Of a DNA stretch of 38,882 bases, positions 7,895 through 36,075 are shown in pieces. Position numbers and translations under genes: made by a program. The notes below the pieces were generated by a model. It searched no databases. It was not told the origin of the DNA and saw only the letters and a program-made list of their open reading frames with translations. Each line of letters opens with the position of its first letter. Position 1 is the first letter of the stretch. The stretch spans positions 1 through 38,882 of IMG/VR virus record IMGVR_UViG_3300027743_000057. One strand, written 5' to 3'. Origin of the DNA: a virus.

Positions 7895-8323
7895 ATGTCA
7901 ATTTCGGACTCAACCGAAAATTCGATCCTGAATTTAGTCTTCTCCGCCACGACCTGGGCGAACTATGCCGTCAATGCGACGGCCTCGCCCGAGACCAACA
8001 TCCACGTCGCGCTGCAGACCGCTGACCCGACCGACAGCGGCACGATGTCGTCGAGCGAGACGACCTACACATCGTATGCCCGGGTCAACGTCGCGCGCTC
8101 GACCGGCTGGTCAACGGCGACCACCGGCGTCGTCAGCCCGGCGTCGAATATCGATTTCCCGGCCGGCACCGGCGGCAGCGGCACCATCTCATTCTTCTCC
8201 ACCGGCAAGACCGGCGGCGGCACCACGGCCATCCTGTGGAGCGGCGCCGTCTCGCCGACCATCGCCGCGGGCAACGGCGTGACGCCGCGCCTCACCACGG
8301 CGACGACGATCTCGCTCGACTGA
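7895..8323 (+). CDS. Phage minor virion / tail-fibre-like protein
   Basis: A 142-residue protein preceded by a strong AGGAAGG site. It begins with a short amphipathic stretch (ENSILNLVFSATTWAN) followed by a Thr/Ser/Gly-rich beta region (IHVALQTADPTDSGT, VNVARSTGW, ISFFSTGKTGGGTTAILWSG). This pattern matches a widespread family of small phage proteins often labelled tail-fibre or minor structural protein. No enzyme motif is seen. It is the first gene downstream of the HNH insertion and resumes the late operon. Confidence 0.65.
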   Translation: MSISDSTENSILNLVFSATTWANYAVNATASPETNIHVALQTADPTDSGTMSSSETTYTSYARVNVARSTGWSTATTGVVSPASNIDFPAGTGGSGTISFFSTGKTGGGTTAILWSGAVSPTIAAGNGVTPRLTTATTISLD

Positions 8324-8327
8324 ACGC

Positions 8328-8774
8328 GTGTATCACTCGCGCGAACTGGTCGCTTGCCTGGAGGCAGTCGACGTTGAGGGCATGCGCCGGCTGTGGGGCC
8401 AGGTGGCGCCGCAGTTTCCGCAGCACGACGACGCCGGCATGGTTGCGGCCATTCACCTGGCGCGCACCAAGTCGGAGCTGGTGCGCTTCAGACTGCGCGC
8501 CTACTCGCATGCCTGGCTGATCGATCACGGCTATCCGTCGTTGTTGCCGGATGAACTCAAACCGCGGGCGCAACGCATCTATCCGGTGATCGCATCGGGC
8601 GTCGGTATCTCGGTCAACTCGCGATACCCGGAGGTCAAATCCGCGGTGACGCTGGCGATGACCGGTGCGGTGCTCGAGGCCGAGGCGGACGGGCGGCTGA
8701 CCGATGCGCCGTTCGTGCGGGGCCGCATGCAGGAAGCGCGGCGGTACGCGGTGAAAAAACTGTTCGGGCGATGA
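8328..8774 (+). CDS. Hypothetical phage protein, helical
   Basis: A 148-residue protein starting with GTG four bases after the upstream stop. It is mostly helical: HSRELVACLEAVDVEGMRRL, HLARTKSELVRFRLRAYSHAWL and a basic C-terminal RGRMQEARRYAVKKL. No transmembrane segment or signal peptide is visible and I do not recognise the family with a named function. It lies in a block of small virion-region genes, so a virion or assembly role is plausible but unproven. Confidence 0.6.
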   Translation: MYHSRELVACLEAVDVEGMRRLWGQVAPQFPQHDDAGMVAAIHLARTKSELVRFRLRAYSHAWLIDHGYPSLLPDELKPRAQRIYPVIASGVGISVNSRYPEVKSAVTLAMTGAVLEAEADGRLTDAPFVRGRMQEARRYAVKKLFGR

Positions 8775-8775
8775 C

Positions 8776-9111
8776 ATGGGCATTGTCGAGCAGATCGCCG
8801 CCATCCGCGCCGGCAAGAAGGATGAGCGTGCGCAGACGTTAGAGATCTATGCGCTGAAGACCAACGCGCTGCTCGGTGTGATCCGCTGTGGTCATGCCGT
8901 CGCGCACAAGGACTACACCTTCCGTATTAACGACGCGCGCATGGTTGGCGAGGGACGCCTGTTCCTCGACGTGACATTCGTGCGTGGCCCGCAAGAAGTT
9001 ACCCACCAGATCACCATCACCAACCCGCCGCTGCTGCCGCGCGAGAGGACCGGCAACGAGCGAGAGGACATGGCGACGGCCATCAGCGAGATGCTGGAAG
9101 GCTTCGTCTGA
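8776..9111 (+). CDS. Hypothetical phage protein
   Basis: A 111-residue protein whose ATG overlaps nothing but follows the upstream stop by one base. It starts with a helix (MGIVEQIAAIRAGKKDERAQTLEIY), then strands (LLGVIRCGHAVAHKDYTFRI, GRLFLDVTFVRG, HQITITNPP), then an acidic C-terminal helix. It is not recognised. The last base of its stop is the first base of the repeat-protein start, so the two are coupled; a chaperone or anchor for that large protein is one possibility. Confidence 0.55.
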   Translation: MGIVEQIAAIRAGKKDERAQTLEIYALKTNALLGVIRCGHAVAHKDYTFRINDARMVGEGRLFLDVTFVRGPQEVTHQITITNPPLLPRERTGNEREDMATAISEMLEGFV

Positions 9112-12044
9112 TGGCTGTTTATAATATCATCTATGTTGCTTCAGACCATGCTGCGCGTGTCTCTGGTGATACGTCGTATGCCTCCGCCCGAAACCTTAGC
9201 GGCGTAACGTCTGAGGACGCCGCTTCCGAATTAAAGATGGGGCATGGGTTTAATTCGCCAAACTTTAGTTTGTGGCAGTCGTTTTTATCTTTCGATACGT
9301 CCGCCGTTATTGGATCGGTTTCCTCTTGGTCGCTTGAATTAAAGAGAAGCACCACTACTACCGCATTCATAGGCAGTGTTACTGGTGCCGCGGGTACGGC
9401 TGTCGCACAGACCATTGAGTGGTACGTTTATCCTTGGACTGGTCAAGCTGCCTCCAATTTAAGAACCGGCACGCAATTGGCAGCCATGACGCCAATTGGT
9501 TCTGGTACGCTCCCAGCAGCTGCCACCACGCGCTATTCTCTTTCGGGGGCTGGTCAGACCAGCCAGTTTTTTGCAGCGTCAAATTTCAATATCATGGTGG
9601 CTGCGGAGGGTCAGCGCACTAACACAGCGCCAAGTTCGGCCTCTCAAAACGGACCCGGCGGAACATATCCGGAAAATGCTACGGGAACGACGAACGATCC
9701 GTTCCTCTCGATCACTCTCGACACCGCATGGCAATTCCTCGGCGTCTCCAACGAAGTTGCAGTCGCCACCACCGCGCACGCGCTGGTCACCACCGGCATC
9801 AGCGGTACGCTGGCGGCGGGCGATCTGCTGGTTGCTTGCATCACGTCGCGCATCGCATCGACCACCTCGGTCACGCTGCCGACCGGCGGCGAGTGGACGC
9901 TGGTCGCAGAGCAGAAGAACAACAACACTCTAACCACCAGCTCCGCCCTGCCTTCGGGGCTGATGGCCTACTGTGTGCGGGGTGCGTCCAACCCGAACCT
10001 GACGTTCACCCATCCGGTTGCTCCCAGTCAGGCGCAGGGGCGGATCGTCGCCTATCGCAATGTCAACACGTCCTCGCCGAAGGACACGCAGACATCGTTC
10101 ACCACGGCGACCGCTCAAACGGCAGTCACCGGCACCGGTCTGACGACGACGCAGATCGAAGACCTGATCGTCGCAATGGCGTGCGGCGGGCAGGAAGCGG
10201 CGTGGTCCGCGTTCAACGCGACCGATCCGGCGGGTGCGTCGGGTGCAACCGTCACCACCGCGCCAACGACGACGTGGTCCGAGCGCGCCGACTCTGCTGT
10301 CACAACGGGTGCTGACGGCTCACTCGCGATCTTCGACGCGGTCAAGCTGACCAGTGGCGCGACCGGCAACCTCACCGCCACGGCATCCGTCTCTGCCGGG
10401 CACGTCGTCATCGCGGGCGCGTTCAAGATCTATGCGCCGCCGGCCGGCGACGGTGTCGGCGACGCGGACGGTGTGGGTGCGGCCGCCGCCACGGGCGCGG
10501 CGATCACGTCGGCCGATGCGAGCACGGCGAGCGGCACCGGCTCGGCGAGTGCAACGGGCACCGGCATCGTCGACACGGTCGGCGATGCTGACGGCACCAG
10601 CACTGCGGCGGCGACCGGTTCGTCGATCACGATCCTCGAGGGCGTTGGTGATGCTGACGGCGTCGGCGCCGCGAGTGCGACCGGCACGGGTATTGCGACT
10701 GCAAACGCCAGCACGGCTGCGGGTGTTGGCGCGGCCTCTGCCACCGGTTTCGCCATTGCGGCGGGCGCGGGCACGGCTGCCGGTATTGGCGCCGCATCAG
10801 CCGCGGGCACAGGCATCGCGGTCAGTGTCGGCACTGCGGCTGGCATTGGCACAGCTACCGCGGAAGGCACGACCGTCGGCGTCACCTCGTCGGCGCAGGG
10901 AACGGCCACCGGCACCGGCGCCGCCGCTGCCACCGGCACCGGCATCAAGGCCGCCAACGCCAGCACGGCGAGCGGGATAGGCACTGCAACGGCCACCGCT
11001 ACGGCGACTGCGGCATCGGCTGGCGATGCTGACGGGATCGGCACTGCCACCGGCGCAGGTCATACCGTCAGGGTCGGCGCGGGTGATGCCGACGGTCTGG
11101 GTACAGCGTCGGCCACGGGCGCGCTCACTGGCGCAAGCGTTGGCACTGCGGCCGGCATCGGCAGCGCGACTGCCACAGGCGGCGGCACCGGTTCCGGCAT
11201 CGGCGACGCTGATGGCATCGGCGCGGCTACTGCGGCCGGCCGGGCAACCGGCGCGTCGGCGGGTGATGCAGACGGCGTTGGCACTGCGGCGGCAACGGCC
11301 ACAGCGACGGCGGTCTCGGTCGGAACGGCCGAAGGCGATGGCACCGCACTCGCACTTTCGGATCCTGGGACGACCACCGGCGAGGCAACCGGACAAGGCA
11401 CGGCGGCAGCAACCGGCCGGGCGATCACGGTTGGCGTCGGCGCTGCGTCTGGCGTTGGCACAGCCGCGGCAGTCGGTGGTGCCATCGCCACGGCGGTTGG
11501 ATCGGCCGCTGGCCTCGGCAGTGCATCGGCAACCGGCGCCCGCATTGCAGCAGGCGTCGGCACCGCGAGCGGGATCGGCACGGCTGCGGCGGTCAGCGCG
11601 GAAGCTGGCGTTATCGCTGAAGGTGTCGGCACCGCGACCGGTGTCGGCGAAGCCATCGGCCGATCGCTCGAGGAGCAGTTGCCGATCGCCGGCGGCGGCG
11701 GTGTTGGAATTCGGTTCCGGCCGCGCCCGGCGGTTATCGAAGGTGTCGGCTACGCTGTCCTGCCCGAGCTCATTGGGTTCGCGATCGGCGAGGTTGGCTA
11801 TCGTCCCAAGCTTATCGCCGGACGCGCCAAGGGTGTCGTTGCTCTCACTGGCCACGCTTCCGGCGACATTGGGGTCAAGGGCGCGGCCTACAGTATCGCG
11901 CGCCTGCCGCTGATGGCGTCCGCATCGATGGACGCGGGATCCGCCGGCCAGGCGCAAGTCAGTCTCTCGATCTGCAAGGGTGCCGCCATGGGCGATCACG
12001 ATCCAGACGAGCATTTGATCATCGCCTTGATGTTGGCGGCATGA
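9111..12044 (+). CDS. 977-residue repeat-rich fibre-like virion protein
   Basis: Four parts are visible. Residues 1-200 are a beta-rich domain with a DNRLRE-like stretch (FLSFDTSAVIGSVSSWSLEL). Residues 200-445 are a second beta domain with DLLVACITSR, VTLPTGGEWTLVAE and GRIVAYRNVNTSSP, a pattern known from phage tail and surface proteins. Residues 449-852 are about twenty imperfect 20-residue Gly/Ala repeats. The remaining 125 residues form a distinct C-terminal domain. The first 600 bases are clearly richer in A+T than the rest. It is probably a virion surface fibre or adhesin. It is coupled to the preceding gene by a one-base overlap and followed by the collagen-like gene. Confidence 0.7.
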   Translation: MAVYNIIYVASDHAARVSGDTSYASARNLSGVTSEDAASELKMGHGFNSPNFSLWQSFLSFDTSAVIGSVSSWSLELKRSTTTTAFIGSVTGAAGTAVAQTIEWYVYPWTGQAASNLRTGTQLAAMTPIGSGTLPAAATTRYSLSGAGQTSQFFAASNFNIMVAAEGQRTNTAPSSASQNGPGGTYPENATGTTNDPFLSITLDTAWQFLGVSNEVAVATTAHALVTTGISGTLAAGDLLVACITSRIASTTSVTLPTGGEWTLVAEQKNNNTLTTSSALPSGLMAYCVRGASNPNLTFTHPVAPSQAQGRIVAYRNVNTSSPKDTQTSFTTATAQTAVTGTGLTTTQIEDLIVAMACGGQEAAWSAFNATDPAGASGATVTTAPTTTWSERADSAVTTGADGSLAIFDAVKLTSGATGNLTATASVSAGHVVIAGAFKIYAPPAGDGVGDADGVGAAAATGAAITSADASTASGTGSASATGTGIVDTVGDADGTSTAAATGSSITILEGVGDADGVGAASATGTGIATANASTAAGVGAASATGFAIAAGAGTAAGIGAASAAGTGIAVSVGTAAGIGTATAEGTTVGVTSSAQGTATGTGAAAATGTGIKAANASTASGIGTATATATATAASAGDADGIGTATGAGHTVRVGAGDADGLGTASATGALTGASVGTAAGIGSATATGGGTGSGIGDADGIGAATAAGRATGASAGDADGVGTAAATATATAVSVGTAEGDGTALALSDPGTTTGEATGQGTAAATGRAITVGVGAASGVGTAAAVGGAIATAVGSAAGLGSASATGARIAAGVGTASGIGTAAAVSAEAGVIAEGVGTATGVGEAIGRSLEEQLPIAGGGGVGIRFRPRPAVIEGVGYAVLPELIGFAIGEVGYRPKLIAGRAKGVVALTGHASGDIGVKGAAYSIARLPLMASASMDAGSAGQAQVSLSICKGAAMGDHDPDEHLIIALMLAA
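10455..11666 (+). repeat. Tandem 60-base coding repeats (about 20 copies)
   Basis: The encoded unit is roughly VG-TorD-A-x-G-IorV-G-TorA-A-x-ATG-x-x-I-x-x-x, 20 residues long, repeated about 20 times with substitutions and a few 1-3 residue indels. Each unit has Gly at fixed spacing and a second half rich in Ala and Thr. The DNA units are diverged but share GGC/GCG-rich cores. This is protein-level repetition, not a CRISPR array: there are no conserved direct repeats separated by unique spacers. Confidence 0.9.
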
Positions 12045-12045
12045 C

Positions 12046-12579
12046 ATGAGCAAGCCGCCGCTCATTCCGCCACCGACCTACACATTGTGGCAATGCATCG
12101 GGACCGCGCTCGCGCTGTCGCGGCGTGCCGTCGAGGAAGTGCGGGCGCTGTCACGCCTGCCCGGGCCGCAGGGCGAACAGGGACTGGTCGGACGGCAGGG
12201 ACCAGCTGGTCCGGAGGGCGGCAGGGGCATCGCCGGCGTGCAGGGACCGCCCGGCCGCGATGCGATCCAGTTGGAAGACTTCGAGATCGAAGCCAAGGAC
12301 GGCGGTCGCTTCTTCGTACTGATCCTCAAGCGCGGCGAGACCGAAATCCGCCGTGAGGTCCGCACCGACCTGATGATCAACCGCGGCGTCTGGCGCGAGG
12401 GCGCGTTCCTCAAGGGCGACTGCGTCACGCACGGCGGCTCGCTGTTTGTCGCCGAGGAAGACACCAGCGACAAGCCCGAGCAGGGCAAGGCATGGCGTCT
12501 CGCCATCAAGCGCGGGCGCGACGGCCGGGACGCCAAGGCAGACGAGAAGCGCACGCTCGAGCCGGTGCGGTTTCGATAG
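12046..12579 (+). CDS. Collagen-like virion protein with C-terminal binding-type domain
   Basis: A 177-residue protein. An N-terminal helix (TLWQCIGTALALSRRAVEEVRAL) is followed by about ten Gly-X-Y triplets at residues 40-75 (GPQGEQGLVGRQGPAG then GVQGPPGRD). A beta domain follows, and a C-terminal segment GVWREGAFLKGDCVTHGGSLFVAEEDT...WRLAIKRG resembles small carbohydrate-binding modules of the ChiA/type 5/12 style seen on phage tails. It would trimerise through the collagen part. Its stop overlaps the GTG of the next gene, linking it to the glycan-enzyme cassette. Confidence 0.7.
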   Translation: MSKPPLIPPPTYTLWQCIGTALALSRRAVEEVRALSRLPGPQGEQGLVGRQGPAGPEGGRGIAGVQGPPGRDAIQLEDFEIEAKDGGRFFVLILKRGETEIRREVRTDLMINRGVWREGAFLKGDCVTHGGSLFVAEEDTSDKPEQGKAWRLAIKRGRDGRDAKADEKRTLEPVRFR

Positions 12580-13214
12580 TGGCATCGTATTGGACTGTCC
12601 CGCATGAATGGCCGGGCGAGATGGTATTCATTGTGGCCGGCGGGCCATCGGTGCTCGGGCAGGATCTTGAAGCACTGCGCGGGCGCCGGGTGATTGCGAT
12701 CAACTCCAGTGTCTTTACCGTGCCGTGGGCCGACATCCTGTTCTTCGGCGATTGGCGCTGGTGGAACGAACCCGAGAACCGTGCGGCGGTTGCAAGGTTT
12801 CCCGGCCGCGTCGTGACCACCTCGCGCACGGTGCCGGACAAGAAAGTGTATGTCTGCTGCAAGACCAAGCCGCCGGGGCTGGCGCTGGAACGCAACAGCC
12901 TGATGCAGCGATGGACCTCGCTGACGGCGGCGACCAACCTGGCGGCGCATCTTGTCGGGCCAGGCGGGACGATCGTGTGGCTTGGTGCCGACGGGCGGAA
13001 AGCCGCGGACGGCCGCACGCATCATCACCCGCCGCATCGCTGGGCGCACACACCCGGCTGCTACGATAAGCACCGCGCTGATCTTGCGACGATCGTTCCG
13101 TCGCTACGATCACTGAACATTGCAGCGTGTAACGCCTCGCCGGGCACAGCCTGGGCGGATCTGCTGCCGGTGATCGATCTGCAGGAAGCGCTCGGCGAGC
13201 GGTGCGCTGCTTGA
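12579..13214 (+). CDS. MptE/DUF115-like Rossmann protein, possible glycan-modifying enzyme
   Basis: A 211-residue protein starting at GTG 12579, which overlaps the previous stop (TAGTG). The opening MVFIVAGGPSVLGQDLE, then RVIAINSSV and ADILFFGDWRWWNE, follow the nucleotide-binding GGPS and INSS pattern of DUF115/MptE-like proteins. That group also contains sialyltransferase-like and flagellin-modification enzymes. A His-rich stretch (GRTHHHPPHRWAH) lies near residue 150. No signal peptide is seen, so it is cytoplasmic. Its exact substrate cannot be read from sequence. It is the first of four coupled enzymes between fibre and connector genes. Confidence 0.6.
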   Translation: MASYWTVPHEWPGEMVFIVAGGPSVLGQDLEALRGRRVIAINSSVFTVPWADILFFGDWRWWNEPENRAAVARFPGRVVTTSRTVPDKKVYVCCKTKPPGLALERNSLMQRWTSLTAATNLAAHLVGPGGTIVWLGADGRKAADGRTHHHPPHRWAHTPGCYDKHRADLATIVPSLRSLNIAACNASPGTAWADLLPVIDLQEALGERCAA

Positions 13215-14092
13215 GGACGATCATCCTCCGCGGAATGTGGGGATTCGGCGACAACATTTATGCGCGACCGTTCATGCGCGCAGCCGCATCGCAATACGAT
13301 CTCTGGCTCGAGACACCCTGGCCGGAACTGTTCGAGGATCTCGATATCCGGTTTGTGCGCGGGTCGCGCCGGCTGCGCACGCAGTTAAACAATGTCGCGC
13401 TGCAGCCGGAGGATCGCTGGTCGCGGCCGCCACTCTCGACCCGCGAGGTGATCCTCAACTACGGCAACCTAGCCGCAAGTTCGATCATCCGGTCACTGGA
13501 GACACGCTGGAGCACAAAACTGAGCGTCCGGTTCGACCCGGCGCTGTTCGATCTGCCGGATATGGGTCCGTCGCCTGTCGTGTCGGATCGGCCGATTGCC
13601 GTGATCCGGCCGGTCACGTTGCGTTCCGAATGGAAAAACCCGGCGCGCAACCCGAAGCCGGAATACGTCAACGCGCTGGCGGGTGAACTGATGGCGACCC
13701 ATACCGTGGTTGTGGTCGCCTCTCTCGCCGCGAACCAGGAATGGTTGGTCGGAGATCTGCCGCCAGCGCACCACCACTTTCTGTTCGGCGAACTCAAGAT
13801 TCGCCAGCTGCTCGCGCTGGTGCGCGATGCGGATATCGTGGTCGGCGGCGTCGGCTGGATCGTGCCGGCCGCACTTGCGCTGAAGACGCGGACCTTCATC
13901 GTGCTCGGTGGTAACGGCGCCCACAACGCGCCCGACAAGATCACAGATCGGCGCCTTGATTTGAGCCGCATTGGCTTTGCCGTACCGGAGAGGTTCTGCC
14001 GATGTGCGAGCATGCTGCATGCCTGTGACAAGACGATCGCAGATCCGCTCGGCCAGTTTGCCAGTTGGTCCGCCAGCATCTCCGCTGCCTAG
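13202..14092 (+). CDS. GT9/heptosyltransferase-like glycosyltransferase
   Basis: A 296-residue GT-B-like protein. It begins TIILRGMWGFGDNIYARPFM, which parallels the GIGD-----P opening of heptosyltransferases. It has a mid-protein IAVIRPVTLRSEWKNPARN strand and a C-terminal donor-site region, LLALVRDADIVVGGVGWIVPAALALKT, followed by FIVLGGN. GT9 enzymes add heptose-type sugars to LPS cores; the acceptor here is unknown. The start is GTG 13202 or TTG 13211, since both keep the first strand and overlap the upstream stop. The C-terminus carries several Cys residues (RFCRCASMLHAC), unusual for the family. Confidence 0.65.
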   Translation: MRCLRTIILRGMWGFGDNIYARPFMRAAASQYDLWLETPWPELFEDLDIRFVRGSRRLRTQLNNVALQPEDRWSRPPLSTREVILNYGNLAASSIIRSLETRWSTKLSVRFDPALFDLPDMGPSPVVSDRPIAVIRPVTLRSEWKNPARNPKPEYVNALAGELMATHTVVVVASLAANQEWLVGDLPPAHHHFLFGELKIRQLLALVRDADIVVGGVGWIVPAALALKTRTFIVLGGNGAHNAPDKITDRRLDLSRIGFAVPERFCRCASMLHACDKTIADPLGQFASWSASISAA

Positions 14093-14093
14093 C

Positions 14094-14675
14094 GTGCTGC
14101 AGTCGTCGCTCGAAGTGTGGCCGATCGACTGGACTGGCCTGCCGACACGGTTCATGTCTCATGACAATTGCGATTTGGAAGTCTTGATCGCGCTGGTGCG
14201 CAGCGTCAGCCCGCGTCATGTCATCGAGTTTGGCGTCAACGTTGGGCGTACCGCCAAGGCGATCATGGCAAACGTGCCGGGCATCGAACGCTATACCGGC
14301 ATCGATGTGCCGCTCGACTATGTGCCGATCCTGGCGCTGCAACTCGACAATGCCGTGCCGAACCCCGGCGAAATGGTTCTGTCCGATTCGCGCTTTCATC
14401 TGATCGTCAAGCCGCGCGGTTCGCTCGACCTGACCGTCGCGGATCTTGAGCCGTGCGATGCCGCATTCATTGACGGCGATCACGGCCGCGCAGCCGTGCT
14501 GCACGACACCATGCTGGCGCGCGCGCTGGTGCGTCCAGGCGGGATCATCGTCTGGCACGACTACCACGACATTGGAAACGTGGACGTGAAGGCCGTGCTG
14601 GACGAGATGCACCAGGCCGGTGCTGCAATTCAACGTGTCGACAATTCCTGGCTTGCGTTTGAACGGGTCGGCTGA
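14094..14675 (+). CDS. Class I SAM-dependent methyltransferase (Methyltransf_24-like)
   Basis: A 193-residue protein from GTG 14094, one base after the upstream stop. Motif I is HVIEFGVNVGRTAKAI, the acidic end of strand 2 is YTGIDVP, and the acidic strand 4 segment is CDAAFIDGDHGRAAV. After it come GGIIVWHDYHDIGNV and a closing NSWLAFERVG. The DGDH and WHDY motifs are typical of small sugar O-methyltransferase-like enzymes. An upstream ATG (14019) would overlap the previous gene by 74 bases and adds non-conserved Ser/Pro/Arg sequence, so I reject it. It may methylate the glycan built by the neighbouring enzymes. Confidence 0.75.
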   Translation: MLQSSLEVWPIDWTGLPTRFMSHDNCDLEVLIALVRSVSPRHVIEFGVNVGRTAKAIMANVPGIERYTGIDVPLDYVPILALQLDNAVPNPGEMVLSDSRFHLIVKPRGSLDLTVADLEPCDAAFIDGDHGRAAVLHDTMLARALVRPGGIIVWHDYHDIGNVDVKAVLDEMHQAGAAIQRVDNSWLAFERVG

Positions 14676-15364
14676 TGCACACATATGCTGCACAATTGCA
14701 TGAAGGACATCACCGATCCGGTCGGACAGTTTTTCCGCTGGTTGAACAGTTCTCGGCAGGCCGCCTGACCTGGTGGCCGCAACTTGGCCTCGGCTGGTAT
14801 CCGGTGACGGCCGGCGTCGAGCCATACGACCAGGAATACTTCGATCGGTTCGGCCGCGATGCGGCCACGCCGCTCGGGGGCGCGCTGATGCAGGGACGCC
14901 TCGCGTTCGTCGAGCAGCACTGGCAGAGCACGCTGGTCGATGTCGGCATCGGGTCGGGCGCCTTCGTCGAATTGCGGCGCGCGCACGGACAGACAACCTA
15001 CGGCTACGACGTCAATCCGGCCGGTGTGCGCTGGCTCGATGAGCGCGGGTTGGCGATCGACCCGTATCGTGTCCCGACTCCGGCGATGACGCTGTGGGAC
15101 GTGCTCGAGCACATTCCATATTACCCGGCGCTGCTCGCCAACGTGCGGCAGTGGCTGTTTGTCTCGACGCCGATCTATCGCGACGCTGAGCATGTGCTGC
15201 GCTCGAAGCATTTCCGGCCGACCGAGCACTGCTGGTACTGGACCCAGCCGGGCATCGTGTACGCGATGAAGTTGTGCGGTTTCGAACTGGTGGTGGAAAG
15301 CAATTTCGAGACCGAGCTCGGGCGCGAGGACATCGGGACGTTTGCGTTTCGGCGGGAGACCTGA
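14675..15364 (+). CDS. Class I SAM-dependent methyltransferase (Methyltransf_23-like)
   Basis: A 229-residue protein whose ATG overlaps the previous stop (TGATG). The SAM-binding motif I is LVDVGIGSGAFVELRRA, the following acidic strand is YGYDVNPAGVRWL, and MTLWDVLEHIP is the classic post-motif of ubiquinone-biosynthesis-like and sugar methyltransferases. Two nearby strands (WLFVSTPIY) and a C-terminal REDIGTFAF complete the fold. An N-terminal 60-residue extension includes TWWPQLGLGWYPV. It ends immediately before the connector gene. It is not related enough to the adjacent methyltransferase to be a recent duplicate. Confidence 0.75.
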   Translation: MHTYAAQLHEGHHRSGRTVFPLVEQFSAGRLTWWPQLGLGWYPVTAGVEPYDQEYFDRFGRDAATPLGGALMQGRLAFVEQHWQSTLVDVGIGSGAFVELRRAHGQTTYGYDVNPAGVRWLDERGLAIDPYRVPTPAMTLWDVLEHIPYYPALLANVRQWLFVSTPIYRDAEHVLRSKHFRPTEHCWYWTQPGIVYAMKLCGFELVVESNFETELGREDIGTFAFRRET

Positions 15365-16036
15365 ATGCTGATCGTCACCGAACCTGCCGAAGATCTTCAG
15401 TTGCTGACCGAGGAAGAACTGCGGGTGGCGGCTGGGCTTGAGCCGGACGATGACAGCCAGGATGAAGCGCTTGCGATCCAGGGGCTGCGCGCTGCATCTG
15501 CTCTGGCTGCAGCCTGCGGCGTTGCGAAGGCCGGCTATGATGCATCGCTGGCACCGCTGCGCGGCGCGGCACCGCGCACGCTGCACGCCGAGACGCTGGT
15601 GGAAACGATGCGCGTCAGGCCGGGCTACCAGTATGGGTCGCTATTCCTCGCGCGCTGGCCGGTGCTTGAGATCATCTCGGTGACTGAGGGCTCGACCGCG
15701 CTGACGACTGACGGCTGGGAACTCGACATTCCCGAGGGATCGATCACGCGCCTGTCCAGTAATGAGATGTGTTACTGGGCACGTGGCCGGGTGATCGTTG
15801 AATACGTGGCCGGCTATGATCCCATTCCGGATGACCTGAAAGCGTATGCTACCCAGCTTGTGGGCGGTTACCACCAGGTCACGACGGGCACCGACCCGAA
15901 TGCAAAGCACATTGAAATCCCCGGTGTGATCACGATTGACCGCTGGGTCGACCAGACCGCCACCGACAGCGTCGTACCGGACGACATCAAGTCTGCGCTG
16001 GTGCGTGACGGCTACCGCAGGCCGGTGCTGGCATGA
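15365..16036 (+). CDS. Head-tail connector protein (phiE125 gp8 / HK97 gp6-like)
   Basis: A 223-residue adaptor that docks under the portal. Family features are the N-terminal LTEEELRVAAGL segment, a helix of about 40 residues rich in Ala (ALAIQGLRAASALAAACGVAKAGYD), the WPVLEIISVTEG strand pair and GRVIVEYVAGYDPIPDDLKAYATQLVGGYH. That last motif matches the VRVTYVAGY-PADL pattern of phiE125 gp8-like proteins. ATG 15365 directly follows the methyltransferase stop. Placed here, it shows that the enzyme cassette lies inside the morphogenesis operon. Confidence 0.85.
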   Translation: MLIVTEPAEDLQLLTEEELRVAAGLEPDDDSQDEALAIQGLRAASALAAACGVAKAGYDASLAPLRGAAPRTLHAETLVETMRVRPGYQYGSLFLARWPVLEIISVTEGSTALTTDGWELDIPEGSITRLSSNEMCYWARGRVIVEYVAGYDPIPDDLKAYATQLVGGYHQVTTGTDPNAKHIEIPGVITIDRWVDQTATDSVVPDDIKSALVRDGYRRPVLA

Positions 16037-16377
16037 CGCTGGCTGCCGAGGCGCAGCAGCTCTATCGGGAAAACCTGCACGAGCCTGTCAGCATCCGCCG
16101 CATCAGCGGCACCGGCACCGGGCGGGTTGATACCAGCTATCCCACAGTCGGGCGCGTGTTTGATTCCCAGCGCAAGGAACTGACCGGCGGCATCGCGCAG
16201 CAGGATCGCACCGCGATCATCTATGCGGGCTATTTGTTCGACGCGGGCATGCCGTCCGATGTCGAGGTCGGTGACTATCTGATCGACCAGGGCGGGATTG
16301 AGCATTCGGTCTACGAGGTGAAGCATCGCCGGGTCGAAGGCGAGATGATCGCCTATGAACTGACTGTGCGGGCCTGA
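16033..16377 (+). CDS. Head closure / stopper protein
   Basis: A 114-residue beta-rich protein overlapping the connector stop by four bases (ATGA). The pattern FDSQRKELTGGIAQQDRTAIIYAG, then VGDYLIDQGGIEHSVYEVKHRRVEGEMIAYEL fits head-closure (SPP1 gp16-like) proteins, which cap the connector and keep DNA in. The position between connector and neck protein supports this. Identification is by pattern and gene order. Confidence 0.75.
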   Translation: MTLAAEAQQLYRENLHEPVSIRRISGTGTGRVDTSYPTVGRVFDSQRKELTGGIAQQDRTAIIYAGYLFDAGMPSDVEVGDYLIDQGGIEHSVYEVKHRRVEGEMIAYELTVRA

Positions 16378-16976
16378 TGGCGCTGCAGGCGAAGGTGCAA
16401 CCGATCAGCCGTGAGTTTGAACTATTCATGGCGCAGGATCTCGGGCCGAAGGCGCGCTCGGCCATGCTCGCCGCATTCGCCGCCGAGACGATCGAGGAGG
16501 CCAAGCAGGCGAACAAGCAGGTGCTCGGCGTCGTGCCTCCGTATGACGTATTCGTCGACGGGCAAGAGGGCGCAGCACTCACCAGCGTCAAGCCGGACGG
16601 TGTCATCCGCGCCGAGTTCGAACTGGTGAACGAGGCGCTCGCCTGGATCTATCAGCAACTGGAAACGCACTCGCCGCGGCTGACCGGGCAGTACGCCAGC
16701 TCGCACGTTCTGTTCGCGGACGGGCAGGAAGCGAGCGTGACCAACCCACCGCCCGCGCAGGAATATGTTTTCGTCAACACCACGCCCTACGCGCGCAAGA
16801 TCGAGGGCGACAAGAAATCGGGACGGCCGCCGTCATCGCCGCAGGCGCCCGACGGCGTCTATCAGGCGGTTGCCACGCTCGCGCGGAAATTCAGCAACGT
16901 TGCCAAGGTCACGTTCTCTTACCAGACCGTAATGGGTGGTGAACGCAACCCGGCGATCATCGTGAGGCTGCGCTAA
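16377..16976 (+). CDS. HK97 gp10-like neck / tail completion protein
   Basis: A 199-residue protein with a long N-terminal helix (EFELFMAQDLGPKARSAML). A core with THSPRLTGQYASSHVLFADG, then FVNTTPYARKIEGDKKS is the typical gp10-like pattern of Ser/Gly followed by a strand and TPYA-xIE. It is somewhat longer than the usual 120-150 residues because of an inserted VDGQEGAALTSVKPDG segment. The ATG overlaps the previous stop (TGATG). It joins the head connector to the tail end. Confidence 0.8.
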   Translation: MALQAKVQPISREFELFMAQDLGPKARSAMLAAFAAETIEEAKQANKQVLGVVPPYDVFVDGQEGAALTSVKPDGVIRAEFELVNEALAWIYQQLETHSPRLTGQYASSHVLFADGQEASVTNPPPAQEYVFVNTTPYARKIEGDKKSGRPPSSPQAPDGVYQAVATLARKFSNVAKVTFSYQTVMGGERNPAIIVRLR

Positions 16977-17377
16977 TGCCATCCGCCGTCGTCGAGGCTG
17001 CGTTCCAGGCGCGGCTGTACGAATACACATTGGGCGATCCGCCGGTCATCCCGGCGATCGCGTCCGGCCAGCCCTCCAAGGACCAGGACGCATTCATCGT
17101 GCTGCAGTACCCGGTGGTCAACGGCAACAAGCCGGTGATCGGGCGACACTACTTCGAGGAGGGTGCGGCACGCCTGGTGCTTAACGTGCGTCGCACCGCC
17201 GAGATGGAAGCCGCGCTCGATATCGCCGACAACCTGGCGAGCATCTTCCGCGACCGCAAGTTCCACGACATCGAGACGTTCACACCCTCGCCGCCGATCG
17301 TCAACGACACCAGCAACGACGGCAACTGGTTCAGCCTCTCGGTGATCGTGCCGTATCGCTACCAGTTCTACGATTGA
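16976..17377 (+). CDS. Tail terminator protein
   Basis: A 133-residue alpha/beta protein: FQARLYEYTLGDPPVI, FIVLQYPVVNGNKPVIGRHYFEEGA, LVLNVRRTAEMEAALDIADNLASIFRD and the closing strand FSLSVIVPYRYQFYD. The order of strand, helix and aromatic end fits tail terminators (lambda gpU / SPP1 gp17 class), which cap the finished tail tube. It lies just before the tube protein, as expected. A strong terminator follows. Confidence 0.75.
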   Translation: MPSAVVEAAFQARLYEYTLGDPPVIPAIASGQPSKDQDAFIVLQYPVVNGNKPVIGRHYFEEGAARLVLNVRRTAEMEAALDIADNLASIFRDRKFHDIETFTPSPPIVNDTSNDGNWFSLSVIVPYRYQFYD

Positions 17378-17409
17378 CTGAAACTTAACCCCTAACCCCA
17401 ATCCGACAG

Positions 17410-17440
17410 CCCGCCAGCGCCCCTGGCGGGTTTTTCTTTT
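17410..17440 (+). terminator. Intrinsic terminator between tail terminator and tube genes
   Basis: Perfect arms CCCGCCAG and CTGGCGGG with loop CGCCC, followed by TTTTTCTTTT. This is a textbook rho-independent terminator lying inside the late operon. Confidence 0.9.
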
Positions 17441-17503
17441 CCCGCTGCAGGGGCGGCAGCTTCAGGCGCGTCGCGAGGCGCCCATTCTCAAAGGAGATGC
17501 GCC

Positions 17504-17986
17504 ATGGCTGGCGACATCCAAACCACGTCTGGAACCAAGTTCTACATCAGCAGCACTGCCGCAGCATCGACGGTGGACTCCCTTATCGAATACGAGGCTC
17601 TGACCTGGACAGAGGTCGCCGAGGTCGAGGATCTCGGCAACATCGGCGACGTATCGTCCGAAGTCACCGGTGCGGCGATCGGCGATAGTCGTGTTCGCAA
17701 GGCCAAGGGCGCACGCAACGCCGGCACCATGAATGTGATCTGTTTCGATACGGTGCCGCTCGACGCCGGACAGGAGGCCGTGATTGCGGCCGAGGCGTCC
17801 AATAGCAACTACGCATTCAAGATTGAATTGCCGGAACCGGCCGTAGGCACGGCTGGGACCATTTATTTTCGCGGACTCGTGATGTCGAACGAGTACAGGC
17901 TCGGCACCAACGACAACATCAGGCGGCGGGCCTTCAACATCGGGGTCAACAGTGCCTTGACGGAAGAGCCTGCCACGACTGCGTGA
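17504..17986 (+). CDS. Major tail protein (tail tube)
   Basis: A 160-residue tube protein with a strong AAAGGAG site before ATG 17504. Features are GDIQTTSGTKFYIS, a WTEVAEVEDLGNIGDVSSEV segment, an ARNAGTMNVICFDTVPLDAGQEAV core and IYFRGLVMSNEYRLGTNDN followed by a final strand. This layout matches short phage tail tube proteins, which stack as hexamer rings around the tape measure. It is framed by terminators on both sides, which may set its transcript level apart from neighbouring genes. Confidence 0.85.
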   Translation: MAGDIQTTSGTKFYISSTAAASTVDSLIEYEALTWTEVAEVEDLGNIGDVSSEVTGAAIGDSRVRKAKGARNAGTMNVICFDTVPLDAGQEAVIAAEASNSNYAFKIELPEPAVGTAGTIYFRGLVMSNEYRLGTNDNIRRRAFNIGVNSALTEEPATTA

Positions 17987-18008
17987 TCCTTAGTCGAGGC
18001 AAACGTGC

Positions 18009-18039
18009 GGGGCGGCAGCGATGCCGCCCTTTTTCTTTT
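18009..18039 (+). terminator. Intrinsic terminator after the tail tube gene
   Basis: Arms GGGCGGC and GCCGCCC around AGCGAT, followed by TTTTTCTTTT. It is separated from the tube stop by 23 bases. Together with the terminator at 17410 it brackets the tube gene. Confidence 0.9.
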
Positions 18040-18063
18040 GGCGCAACAGACAATGGTTGTTTC

Positions 18064-18474
18064 ATGAAACTAAGCGATCGCAGGATTGATTTGAAGAAGC
18101 GCGAGGAAGGCGACTGGGTTAAAGACATTCCCGAGTTCGGTGACCTTGAGCTTAAGGTTCGCGGCGTTGGCAACAAGGACTGGGCGCGCATGGAACAGAA
18201 GCTCATCGCCGCCGTTCCGCGCCAGCGCAGGCTCAACGGCCTCGAGCCAGAGGACCGGGTGCGCATCAACGCTATTCTTATTCGTGAAACATCGCTGCTC
18301 GATTGGCGCGGTATGGAGAATGGGAACGGTGAGCCTGAACCGTACAGCAAGGAAGCGGCTAACAAATACCTGACCGATCCGGAACTAGAGTCGTTTCTTT
18401 GGGCCTGCATGCAGGCGGCCACCTCAGTGGCCGAGCAGCGCCGGGAAGAGATCGAGCAAGACGCAAAAAACTGA
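18064..18474 (+). CDS. Tail assembly chaperone (gpG-like, zero-frame product)
   Basis: A 136-residue protein that helps load the tape measure during tail assembly. It is charged and helical: SDRRIDLKKREEGDWVKDIPEF, then LELKVRGVGNKDWARMEQKLI and a C-terminal acidic AEQRREEIEQDAKN. ATG 18064 lies within the palindrome GTTTCATGAAAC. The last codons are GCA AAA AAC TGA, which contain the slippery heptamer A AAA AAC. A -1 shift there extends the protein into the next frame, as with lambda G/GT. Confidence 0.8.
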   Translation: MKLSDRRIDLKKREEGDWVKDIPEFGDLELKVRGVGNKDWARMEQKLIAAVPRQRRLNGLEPEDRVRINAILIRETSLLDWRGMENGNGEPEPYSKEAANKYLTDPELESFLWACMQAATSVAEQRREEIEQDAKN

Positions 18475-18506
18475 TTGACGCCCTGCGGTGGCAACACCAG
18501 TGGGGC
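18465..18506 (+). promoter_or_regulatory. Programmed -1 ribosomal frameshift signal
   Basis: The slippery heptamer A AAA AAC at 18465-18471 is in the correct phase, directly before the zero-frame TGA at 18472. Eight bases later a stem-loop starts: GCCC (18480-18483) pairs with GGGC (18503-18506), and inside it GGTG (18487-18490) pairs with CACC (18495-18498) around a GCAA tetraloop. Spacing and structure fit known bacterial and phage -1 frameshift stimulators. Confidence 0.85.
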
Positions 18507-34977: not shown

Positions 34978-36075
34978 ATGCCACGCGCAAGCATCGATGA
35001 TCCGAAACTACCGGCGCAGTACAGCGCAGCAAAGCGAGCTCTCGCCGTTGCGGTGAAGGTCGAGCAGGCCAAGCACGTGCACGACGTTGCGAGCACGATG
35101 GCGGTCTATGCCTACAAGGCCAAAGATCCGGACATGGCTGGCGACGCTGCCGAGATTGTGGCGCGCGCGACCCGCGTGATCGGCGAGATCAACGATGCGG
35201 AGAAGCGCGCCGGCAAGCAAGCAAAGGGAACGCGCGGGCGCATCATCGGACCAGGTCGAGGAAAGAAAACGGTGGGTCCGTCGGCGACCCGCCGTTTTGA
35301 CGAAGAATCGTTGTTCAAGCGGGGCGTCGACAAGCATCTCGCCGATCGAGCTCGTCGACTCTTTGGGATGACGGAGCCTGCGTTCGAGCGAGAGGTCGCG
35401 AGAGTGCGGCGGCTGGCAGCGGCGGCGGCGCAAGGCGACCGCGAGATCGTGCAGGCCGCCAAAGCGGAGCGGCATGCCAAGGCCAGGGCGCGGCGTGCGG
35501 AGCGCGAGACTGCAGTCGCCGGCAAGATCGCAGCGCTTCCCGACAAAAGATATGGCGTGATCTACGCCGACCCAGAATGGAAGTTCGAAACCTATAACGA
35601 CGACAGCGGCAAGCTCGAAGCGTCGGCCGACCTTCACTATACGACCTCGAGTCTGGATGAGATCAAGGCGCGCGATGTGCCCTCGATCAGCGCATCGGAT
35701 TGCGTGCTGTTCCTTTGGGCAACGGTGCCAATGCTACCGCATGCGCTTGAGGTGATGGGCGCGTGGGGTTTCGATTACGTCTCACATCTCATTTGGAAAA
35801 AAGACAAGGGCGGCACTGGTTACTGGTTTCGCAATTGGCACGAGCTACTGCTGGTCGGTACCCGCGGCAGCATTCCTGCACCGGCGCAGGGATCGCAATG
35901 GGCGTCGGTAATCGAGGCACCGCGTGGTCGACACAGCGAGAAGCCGGATCGGTTTTATGAACTGATCGAGGAGTATTACCCGAACATACCGAAGATCGAA
36001 TTAAACCAGCGCAAGGCGCGGCCTGGTTGGGATGGATGGGGATTCGAGGCACCTCTGTCGGAGGCGGCAGCATGA
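34978..36075 (+). CDS. MT-A70 family adenine methyltransferase with N-terminal helical domain
   Basis: A 365-residue protein. Residues 1-185 are a basic helical region (KVEQAKHVHDVASTMAVYAY, AERHAKARARRAERETAVAG) perhaps for DNA binding. Residues 190-360 are an MT-A70 methyltransferase: RYGVIYADPEWKFETY, DCVLFLWATVPMLPHALEVM, NWHELLLVGTRGSIPAPAQG, EAPRGRHSEKPDRFYELIEE and ARPGWDGWGFEA. The catalytic motif reads DPEW instead of the common DPPW; I recall this variant in rhizobial relatives. It likely makes N6-methyladenine in DNA, protecting the phage from host restriction or tuning expression. GGAGAG precedes the ATG. Confidence 0.88.
   Translation: MPRASIDDPKLPAQYSAAKRALAVAVKVEQAKHVHDVASTMAVYAYKAKDPDMAGDAAEIVARATRVIGEINDAEKRAGKQAKGTRGRIIGPGRGKKTVGPSATRRFDEESLFKRGVDKHLADRARRLFGMTEPAFEREVARVRRLAAAAAQGDREIVQAAKAERHAKARARRAERETAVAGKIAALPDKRYGVIYADPEWKFETYNDDSGKLEASADLHYTTSSLDEIKARDVPSISASDCVLFLWATVPMLPHALEVMGAWGFDYVSHLIWKKDKGGTGYWFRNWHELLLVGTRGSIPAPAQGSQWASVIEAPRGRHSEKPDRFYELIEEYYPNIPKIELNQRKARPGWDGWGFEAPLSEAAA

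Follow-up and report, generated by a model that had tools for sequence, protein, structure and literature searches.

Glycosylation of virion proteins by phage-encoded enzymes is documented for mycobacteriophages. In phage Corndog, an O-methyltransferase and three glycosyltransferases are encoded between the portal and protease genes (PMC4351075) and, in the account of Freeman et al. 2023 given in PMC12619734 and PMC11600133, the C-termini of mycobacteriophage capsid and tail-tube proteins carry glycans. Maf glycosyltransferases O-glycosylate Ser/Thr residues of flagellin (PMC11339370), and TibC heptosylates a protein (PMC4358343). Here, we analyzed four consecutive genes, designated A to D, in the 38.9 kb IMG/VR virus record IMGVR_UViG_3300027743_000057, the whole of which (38,882 nt) is referred to as the window. 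A and B encode glycosyltransferases with Maf and GT9 folds, respectively, and C and D encode S-adenosylmethionine (SAM) methyltransferases. As is characteristic of phage virion glycosylation systems, and as in Corndog (gp35-38) and its relatives, these glycosyltransferase and methyltransferase genes lie inside a virion morphogenesis operon. The cassette is probably a virion-protein glycosylation module made together with the late structural proteins, with the penultimate Ser/Thr of the major tail protein (MTP) as the most likely acceptor.

The likeness to the mycobacteriophage systems extends to the proposed site, as the same secondary accounts place a proposed modification on tail-tube C-termini and, for certain clades, on those of capsid subunits as well. 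The enzymes, however, are different, with actinobacteriophage glycosyltransferases in the one case and enzymes of Maf and GT9 fold, from phages that infect Gram-negative bacteria, in the other, and the system described here is predicted from its genes. By analogy, the cassette is predicted to be functionally like the mycobacteriophage systems but built from different enzymes. If this is correct, phage-encoded virion glycosylation extends to phages of Gram-negative hosts, and orf7, orf12 and orf13 of Pseudomonas phage D3 would gain a function. The specific acceptor proposed, the C-terminal Ser/Thr of the MTP, is named from co-variation alone.

Major tail protein C-termini and the cassette

Listing the C-termini of the major virion proteins revealed that MTPs end in -[DE]E-x-[ST]-[AVG] in phages that have the cassette and in -TP, -GP or -HG in phages that do not. 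The association was evaluated in one MTP family, sister to that of the window and comprising 107 distinct proteins, with cassette-negative assignments confirmed by profile hidden Markov models of A, B, C and D. An [ST][AVG] ending is present in 57 of the 60 MTPs from cassette-positive phages and in none of the 22 from cassette-negative phages (Fisher 5e-17), and the difference is retained when 90% clusters are counted (26/28 versus 0/15). Among hold-out phages, fetched after the motif had been noticed and <95% identical to the earlier ones, the motif is present in all 17 cassette-positive and absent from all 10 cassette-negative MTPs (p 1.2e-7). On a tree built from the MTP core, with the tail excluded, there are six or more cassette changes, and a model of dependent evolution is favored (likelihood-ratio test (LRT) 31.4, 4 degrees of freedom, p 2.6e-6). 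The tail motif is the strongest association among the MTP columns tested, and seven neighbors, namely the tail terminator, Hc1, a further tail-operon gene, the chaperone, the adaptor, the collagen-like gene and the portal, have no association with the cassette.

MTPs of the D3 group end in KSA, KTA, KSTS or VSTS where the cassette is present and in VTP in the cassette-negative phages HK022 and mEpX2. A -TP and a -TA ending can differ by one base, and so this difference may be easily reversed. The motif is kept in the MTPs of variants that have A with a divergent B, that lack D, or that have A alone (L117). In the one cassette found with B, C and D but lacking A (L293 and L294), a natural deletion of A, the MTP ends in -DPAGP. 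Because the motif persists with A alone, and the MTP of the A-less cassette ends in -AGP, the comparison fits A being the putative acceptor-specific enzyme. The window MTP belongs to a different family from the 57/60 set. Six A- or C/D-containing loci in the window MTP's family have the motif but, with thin sampling, the C-terminal test is not discriminating there. We infer from the sequence that Thr159 is the candidate modification site in the window phage.

Several observations weigh against the proposed module and its MTP acceptor. Some cassette-negative MTPs of the D3 group end in -KTT, and the MTPs of Mulvp2 and of the cassette-positive L032 and L132 are without the motif. The MTPs of L289, L290 and L296, cassette-less loci of the window's MTP family, also end in -ATA, on a tail that is longer and different, and this ending could reflect either another modifier or chance. 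The test was devised after the motif had been seen, although with a hold-out, and the cassette is tracked as well by an internal part of the MTP (alignment columns 99-107). A parallel association of the major capsid protein (MCP) rests on one evolutionary change, and the sequence-profile comparison of B with the BAHT family is non-significant; both are described below.

Columns 99-107 (e.g. L006:11030-11554) form a loop that is TDTDGN-like in some MTPs and TTVPGA-like in others. This loop may serve as a recognition site or as an additional acceptor.

Folds of the two glycosyltransferases

An earlier note on this stretch, made from the sequence alone, had described A as MptE/DUF115-like, B as GT9-like, and C and D as two unrelated SAM methyltransferases. 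The first two labels are borne out at the level of fold, and the two methyltransferases do fall into different Pfam families (Table 1). Structures of A and B were modeled from alignments that comprised 32 relatives for A and 29 for B, with rows taken from the window and IMG/VR. The AlphaFold model of A has a predicted local distance difference test (pLDDT) score of 86, and its best fold match is Maf (5mu5; VIA-align Z 14.9, 189 aligned residues, root-mean-square deviation 3.6), by a clear margin over the GT42 sialyltransferase Cst-I (Z 11.0), MptE-like HPPK (10.4) and then other sialyltransferases. A has the central Maf_flag10 (Cst-II-like) fold but is a single domain of 211 aa, whereas Maf has three domains. 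Its PHROG family, phrog_4603, is annotated 'alpha-2,3-sialyltransferase'. There is no Pfam match for A; at the gathering cut-off of the Maf family, PF01973, the window A is assigned to no family and the PAJU2 A scores 17 bits versus the 34.6 required. NCBIfam gave only chance-level matches to A, Foldseek was uninformative by itself, and searching the PDB by sequence, whether with single proteins or with profiles, returned nothing usable, leaving the fold comparison as the informative one. Based on the model, A is predicted to transfer a sugar to Ser/Thr residues of a protein.

The model of B (pLDDT 92) has a GT-B, heptosyltransferase-type fold over the whole chain, with TibC (Z 18.3) and the Veillonella GT9 protein 3tov (17.6) tied as the closest matches, followed by WaaC (16.2) and WaaF (15.6). 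B has no Pfam match, and phrog_6804 is a family of unknown function. Like TibC and AAH, members of the BAHT family, B has a cysteine-rich element in its C-terminal part. Its Asp17 and Trp219, invariant in 31 sequences, are candidate counterparts of the catalytic Asp and heptose-contact Trp of that family (D110 and W305 in TibC), with which they are paired in a weak, non-significant hhalign alignment with three BAHT proteins (E 0.03, probability 1.7). B was nevertheless ruled out as a BAHT member. NCBIfam, TIGR04414 included, gave no family for any of the 29 B proteins at E values up to 5. The iron finger of TibC, with four Cys over 32 residues (C339, C342, C358, C370), is not in B, which has instead a shorter metal-type motif, CxCx4HxC, invariant near the C-terminus of the 31 sequences. 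There is also no room in B for the N-terminal beta-barrel of TibC (residues 1-97), as residue 1 of B aligns to TibC 92 onward, and the generic GT9 fold of 3tov matches B as well as TibC does.

Proposed pathway

In the proposed pathway, A would act in the cytoplasm, on MTP that is still unassembled or is being assembled, and would O-link the first sugar to its C-terminal Ser/Thr. B, with its heptosyltransferase fold, would then extend the glycan with a further sugar, and D, together with C where C is present, would O-methylate the glycan. The donors would be drawn from host pools, with ADP-heptose and CMP-Kdo as candidates. In Bradyrhizobium and Mesorhizobium genomes that have related B genes, ADP-heptose and CMP-Kdo synthesis genes are present above curated cut-offs, and both candidate donors should therefore exist in these likely host genera. 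In the most specific form of this proposal, A would recognize a C-terminal -(Ser/Thr)-Ala, the tail-tube copies would receive a methylated glycan built from CMP-Kdo and then ADP-heptose, and the route would be common to soil phages and D3; in full, this version is possible but somewhat unlikely.

Alternative targets

It is unlikely that the MTP C-terminus is incidental and that the cassette glycosylates a different virion protein, either the collagen-like or repeat fibre protein or the capsid. The cassette does occur beside collagen-like genes in other phages, with such a gene upstream in 34 of the 44 loci that have enough upstream sequence, and so upstream of most cassettes in the lineage. 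The collagen-like gene is, however, equally kept in cassette-less relatives (L098, L101, L103, L105, L109, L110 and others in a portal-based sample), its C-terminus does not co-vary with the cassette (0/57 versus 0/22), and no G-X-Y protein was found in those parts of D3, PAJU2, Psp6, Mulvp2 and L148 that were read. The collagen-like protein is not supported as the target, given its retention without the cassette, its non-varying tail and its absence near the D3, PAJU2 and Psp6 core; by this comparison, the gene belongs to the phage lineage and not to the cassette. For the capsid, the MCPs of one cassette-positive clade end in -HTA or -PTA, unlike the sampled cassette-negative MCPs, in which no [ST][AVGT] ending is present. 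This is a strong raw association, but it reduces to a single evolutionary change in a single clade (LRT p 0.017), the window MCP ends in TMTWN, without the motif, and the capsid C-terminus is not claimed as a target. The MTP, and so the tail tube, is most likely a better candidate than the collagen-like or repeat fibre protein. Of the earlier hypothesis of a phage machine that modifies its own fibre, the virion-directed machine that glycosylates and methylates is supported, whereas a collagen-like or repeat fibre target is not.

A linkage of the MTP tail and the cassette by descent or recombination only, with a real acceptor that is unrelated, is quite unlikely. The MTP gene follows B at a distance of ~2 kb (1.5-5.7 kb), so that the two can travel together, and the internal MTP region tracks the cassette as does the tail. 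Against this, the tail changed along with the cassette over the six or more cassette changes on the tail-free MTP-core tree (LRT p 2.6e-6), and the tail terminator and chaperone genes, which are equally close, show no association.

It is very unlikely that the cassette acts on host lipopolysaccharide (LPS) or a different surface glycan, whether late in infection or in lysogens. B does have its GT9 fold in common with the LPS heptosyltransferases WaaC and WaaF, and a serine-recombinase integrase marks the phage as temperate. Against this, the closest fold to that of A belongs to a protein glycosyltransferase, the cassette is coupled to structural genes and a search for promoter-like sites found none, and neither a flippase nor a polymerase gene lies next to it. 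Of 297 genomes in one host family, B was found in 4, and a separate scan of genome_contigs gave 3 loci. The co-variation of the MTP would also be left unexplained. The fit of A and B to folds in which protein glycosyltransferases occur, the head/tail setting and the co-varying virion-protein C-terminus agree with the earlier suggestion that the target is a virion component rather than host LPS.

Conservation and history of the cassette

A scan for B identified 65 loci in IMG/VR. A, B and D constitute a conserved core, present in dozens of related IMG/VR phages, with homologues also in the Pseudomonas phages D3, PAJU2, Psp6, PP9W2 and P7869, and in every case head/tail genes surround them. Most loci have a 66-88 bp overlap of B with D, and an overlap is also present in D3, PAJU2, Psp6 and PP9W2. 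The arrangement varies: in D3, A follows the capsid gene and B-D follow Hc1; in PAJU2, A-B-D follow Hc1; and in Psp6, A, B and D are between the capsid and adaptor genes. The Pseudomonas phages differ from the window in being without C and without a nearby collagen-like gene. Their homologues are annotated as hypothetical, sialyltransferase or methyltransferase, and the papers searched gave neither a tested function for the D3-group homologues nor a description of this cassette.

Homologues of C occur in a subset of phages at two positions, either between B and D or between A and B, and those at the second position are more diverged. In the relatives L092, L107 and L112, A is accompanied by a divergent B and C. 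Immediately before D in the window there is a decayed remnant of the 3'-end of a second B (Table 1), identified by tblastn of the B tail, which matches the B-tail consensus at 77% identity across 30 residues and is nearly identical in sequence to the B tail of L005. In L042 and L045, as in the window, the decayed second B 3'-end lies partly behind the C stop codon. This copy marks the insertion of C into an older, overlapping B/D pair.

At the same genome site, L136 (8025-12220) and L143 (14103-17800) have A together with genes encoding phosphomannomutase-like, cytidylyltransferase-like and FkbM methyltransferase proteins, and L136 also has a GT8-like gene. This gene content suggests phage-encoded donor synthesis, and the gene set around A varies as in a glycan-building island. 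An HNH-endonuclease-like gene, judged by eye from its translation, is present between A and B in L040 (1843-2394), L043 (6789-7340) and L052 (4599-5021), and may represent a homing element within it.

The cassette in the window

The window phage has terminase, fused protease-capsid, portal, connector, major tail and tape-measure genes, plus a serine-recombinase integrase, and so is a temperate, tailed phage. The four consecutive, coupled genes that had been reported at 12579-15364 are present there, overlapping or abutting on the + strand, and their placement in a morphogenesis operon after a collagen-like gene is confirmed by the identities of the flanking genes, the collagen-like gene on one side and head-tail adaptor, Hc1, neck and tail-terminator genes on the other.

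Table 1. Positions of the cassette genes and associated features in the window.
Feature	Position	Strand	Description
Repeat-rich fibre-like gene	9111..12044	+	977 aa; open reading frame and translation; neighbor of the cassette
Collagen-like gene	12046..12579	+	~11 G-X-Y triplets; Pfam Collagen 1.6e-4, under cut-off
Gene A	12579..13214	+	211 aa; Maf/GT42-fold glycosyltransferase; phrog_4603 E 1e-20; GTG start read from DNA
Gene B	13202..14092	+	296 aa; GT-B/GT9 (heptosyltransferase-fold) glycosyltransferase; phrog_6804 E 2e-93
Gene C	14094..14675	+	SAM methyltransferase, Methyltransf_24 (Pfam 1.8e-10); in a subset of cassettes
Remnant of second B 3'-end	14661..14765	+	In C frame through C stop, overlaps D start; decayed
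Gene D	14675..15364	+	SAM methyltransferase, Methyltransf_23 (Pfam 1.5e-12); phrog_6564 methyltransferase 2e-61; ancestral partner of B
Head-tail adaptor gene	15365..16036	+	phrog_442 6e-13; starts directly after D
Major tail protein (MTP) gene	17504..17986	+	phrog_158 5e-17; ends ...TEEPATTA; favored acceptor, candidate site Thr159 (codon 17978-17980)

The start codon of A has one base in common with the stop codon of the collagen-like gene (TAGTG), B begins with a GTG within a 13 nt overlap with A, the GTG start of C, also read from the DNA, is one base past the B stop codon, and C and D are coupled through a TGATG junction. The Pfam scan of C began at 14118. The 977-aa repeat protein, with GVGDADGVGTAAATG-like units, has no PHROG or Pfam match. 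No sigma-70-like promoter was found in 8000-18500 (0, versus 1.6 expected), so that late expression of the cassette is something we infer from operon structure only. A predicted DNA methyltransferase (phrog_359) is encoded at window positions 34978-36075, distant from the structural genes.

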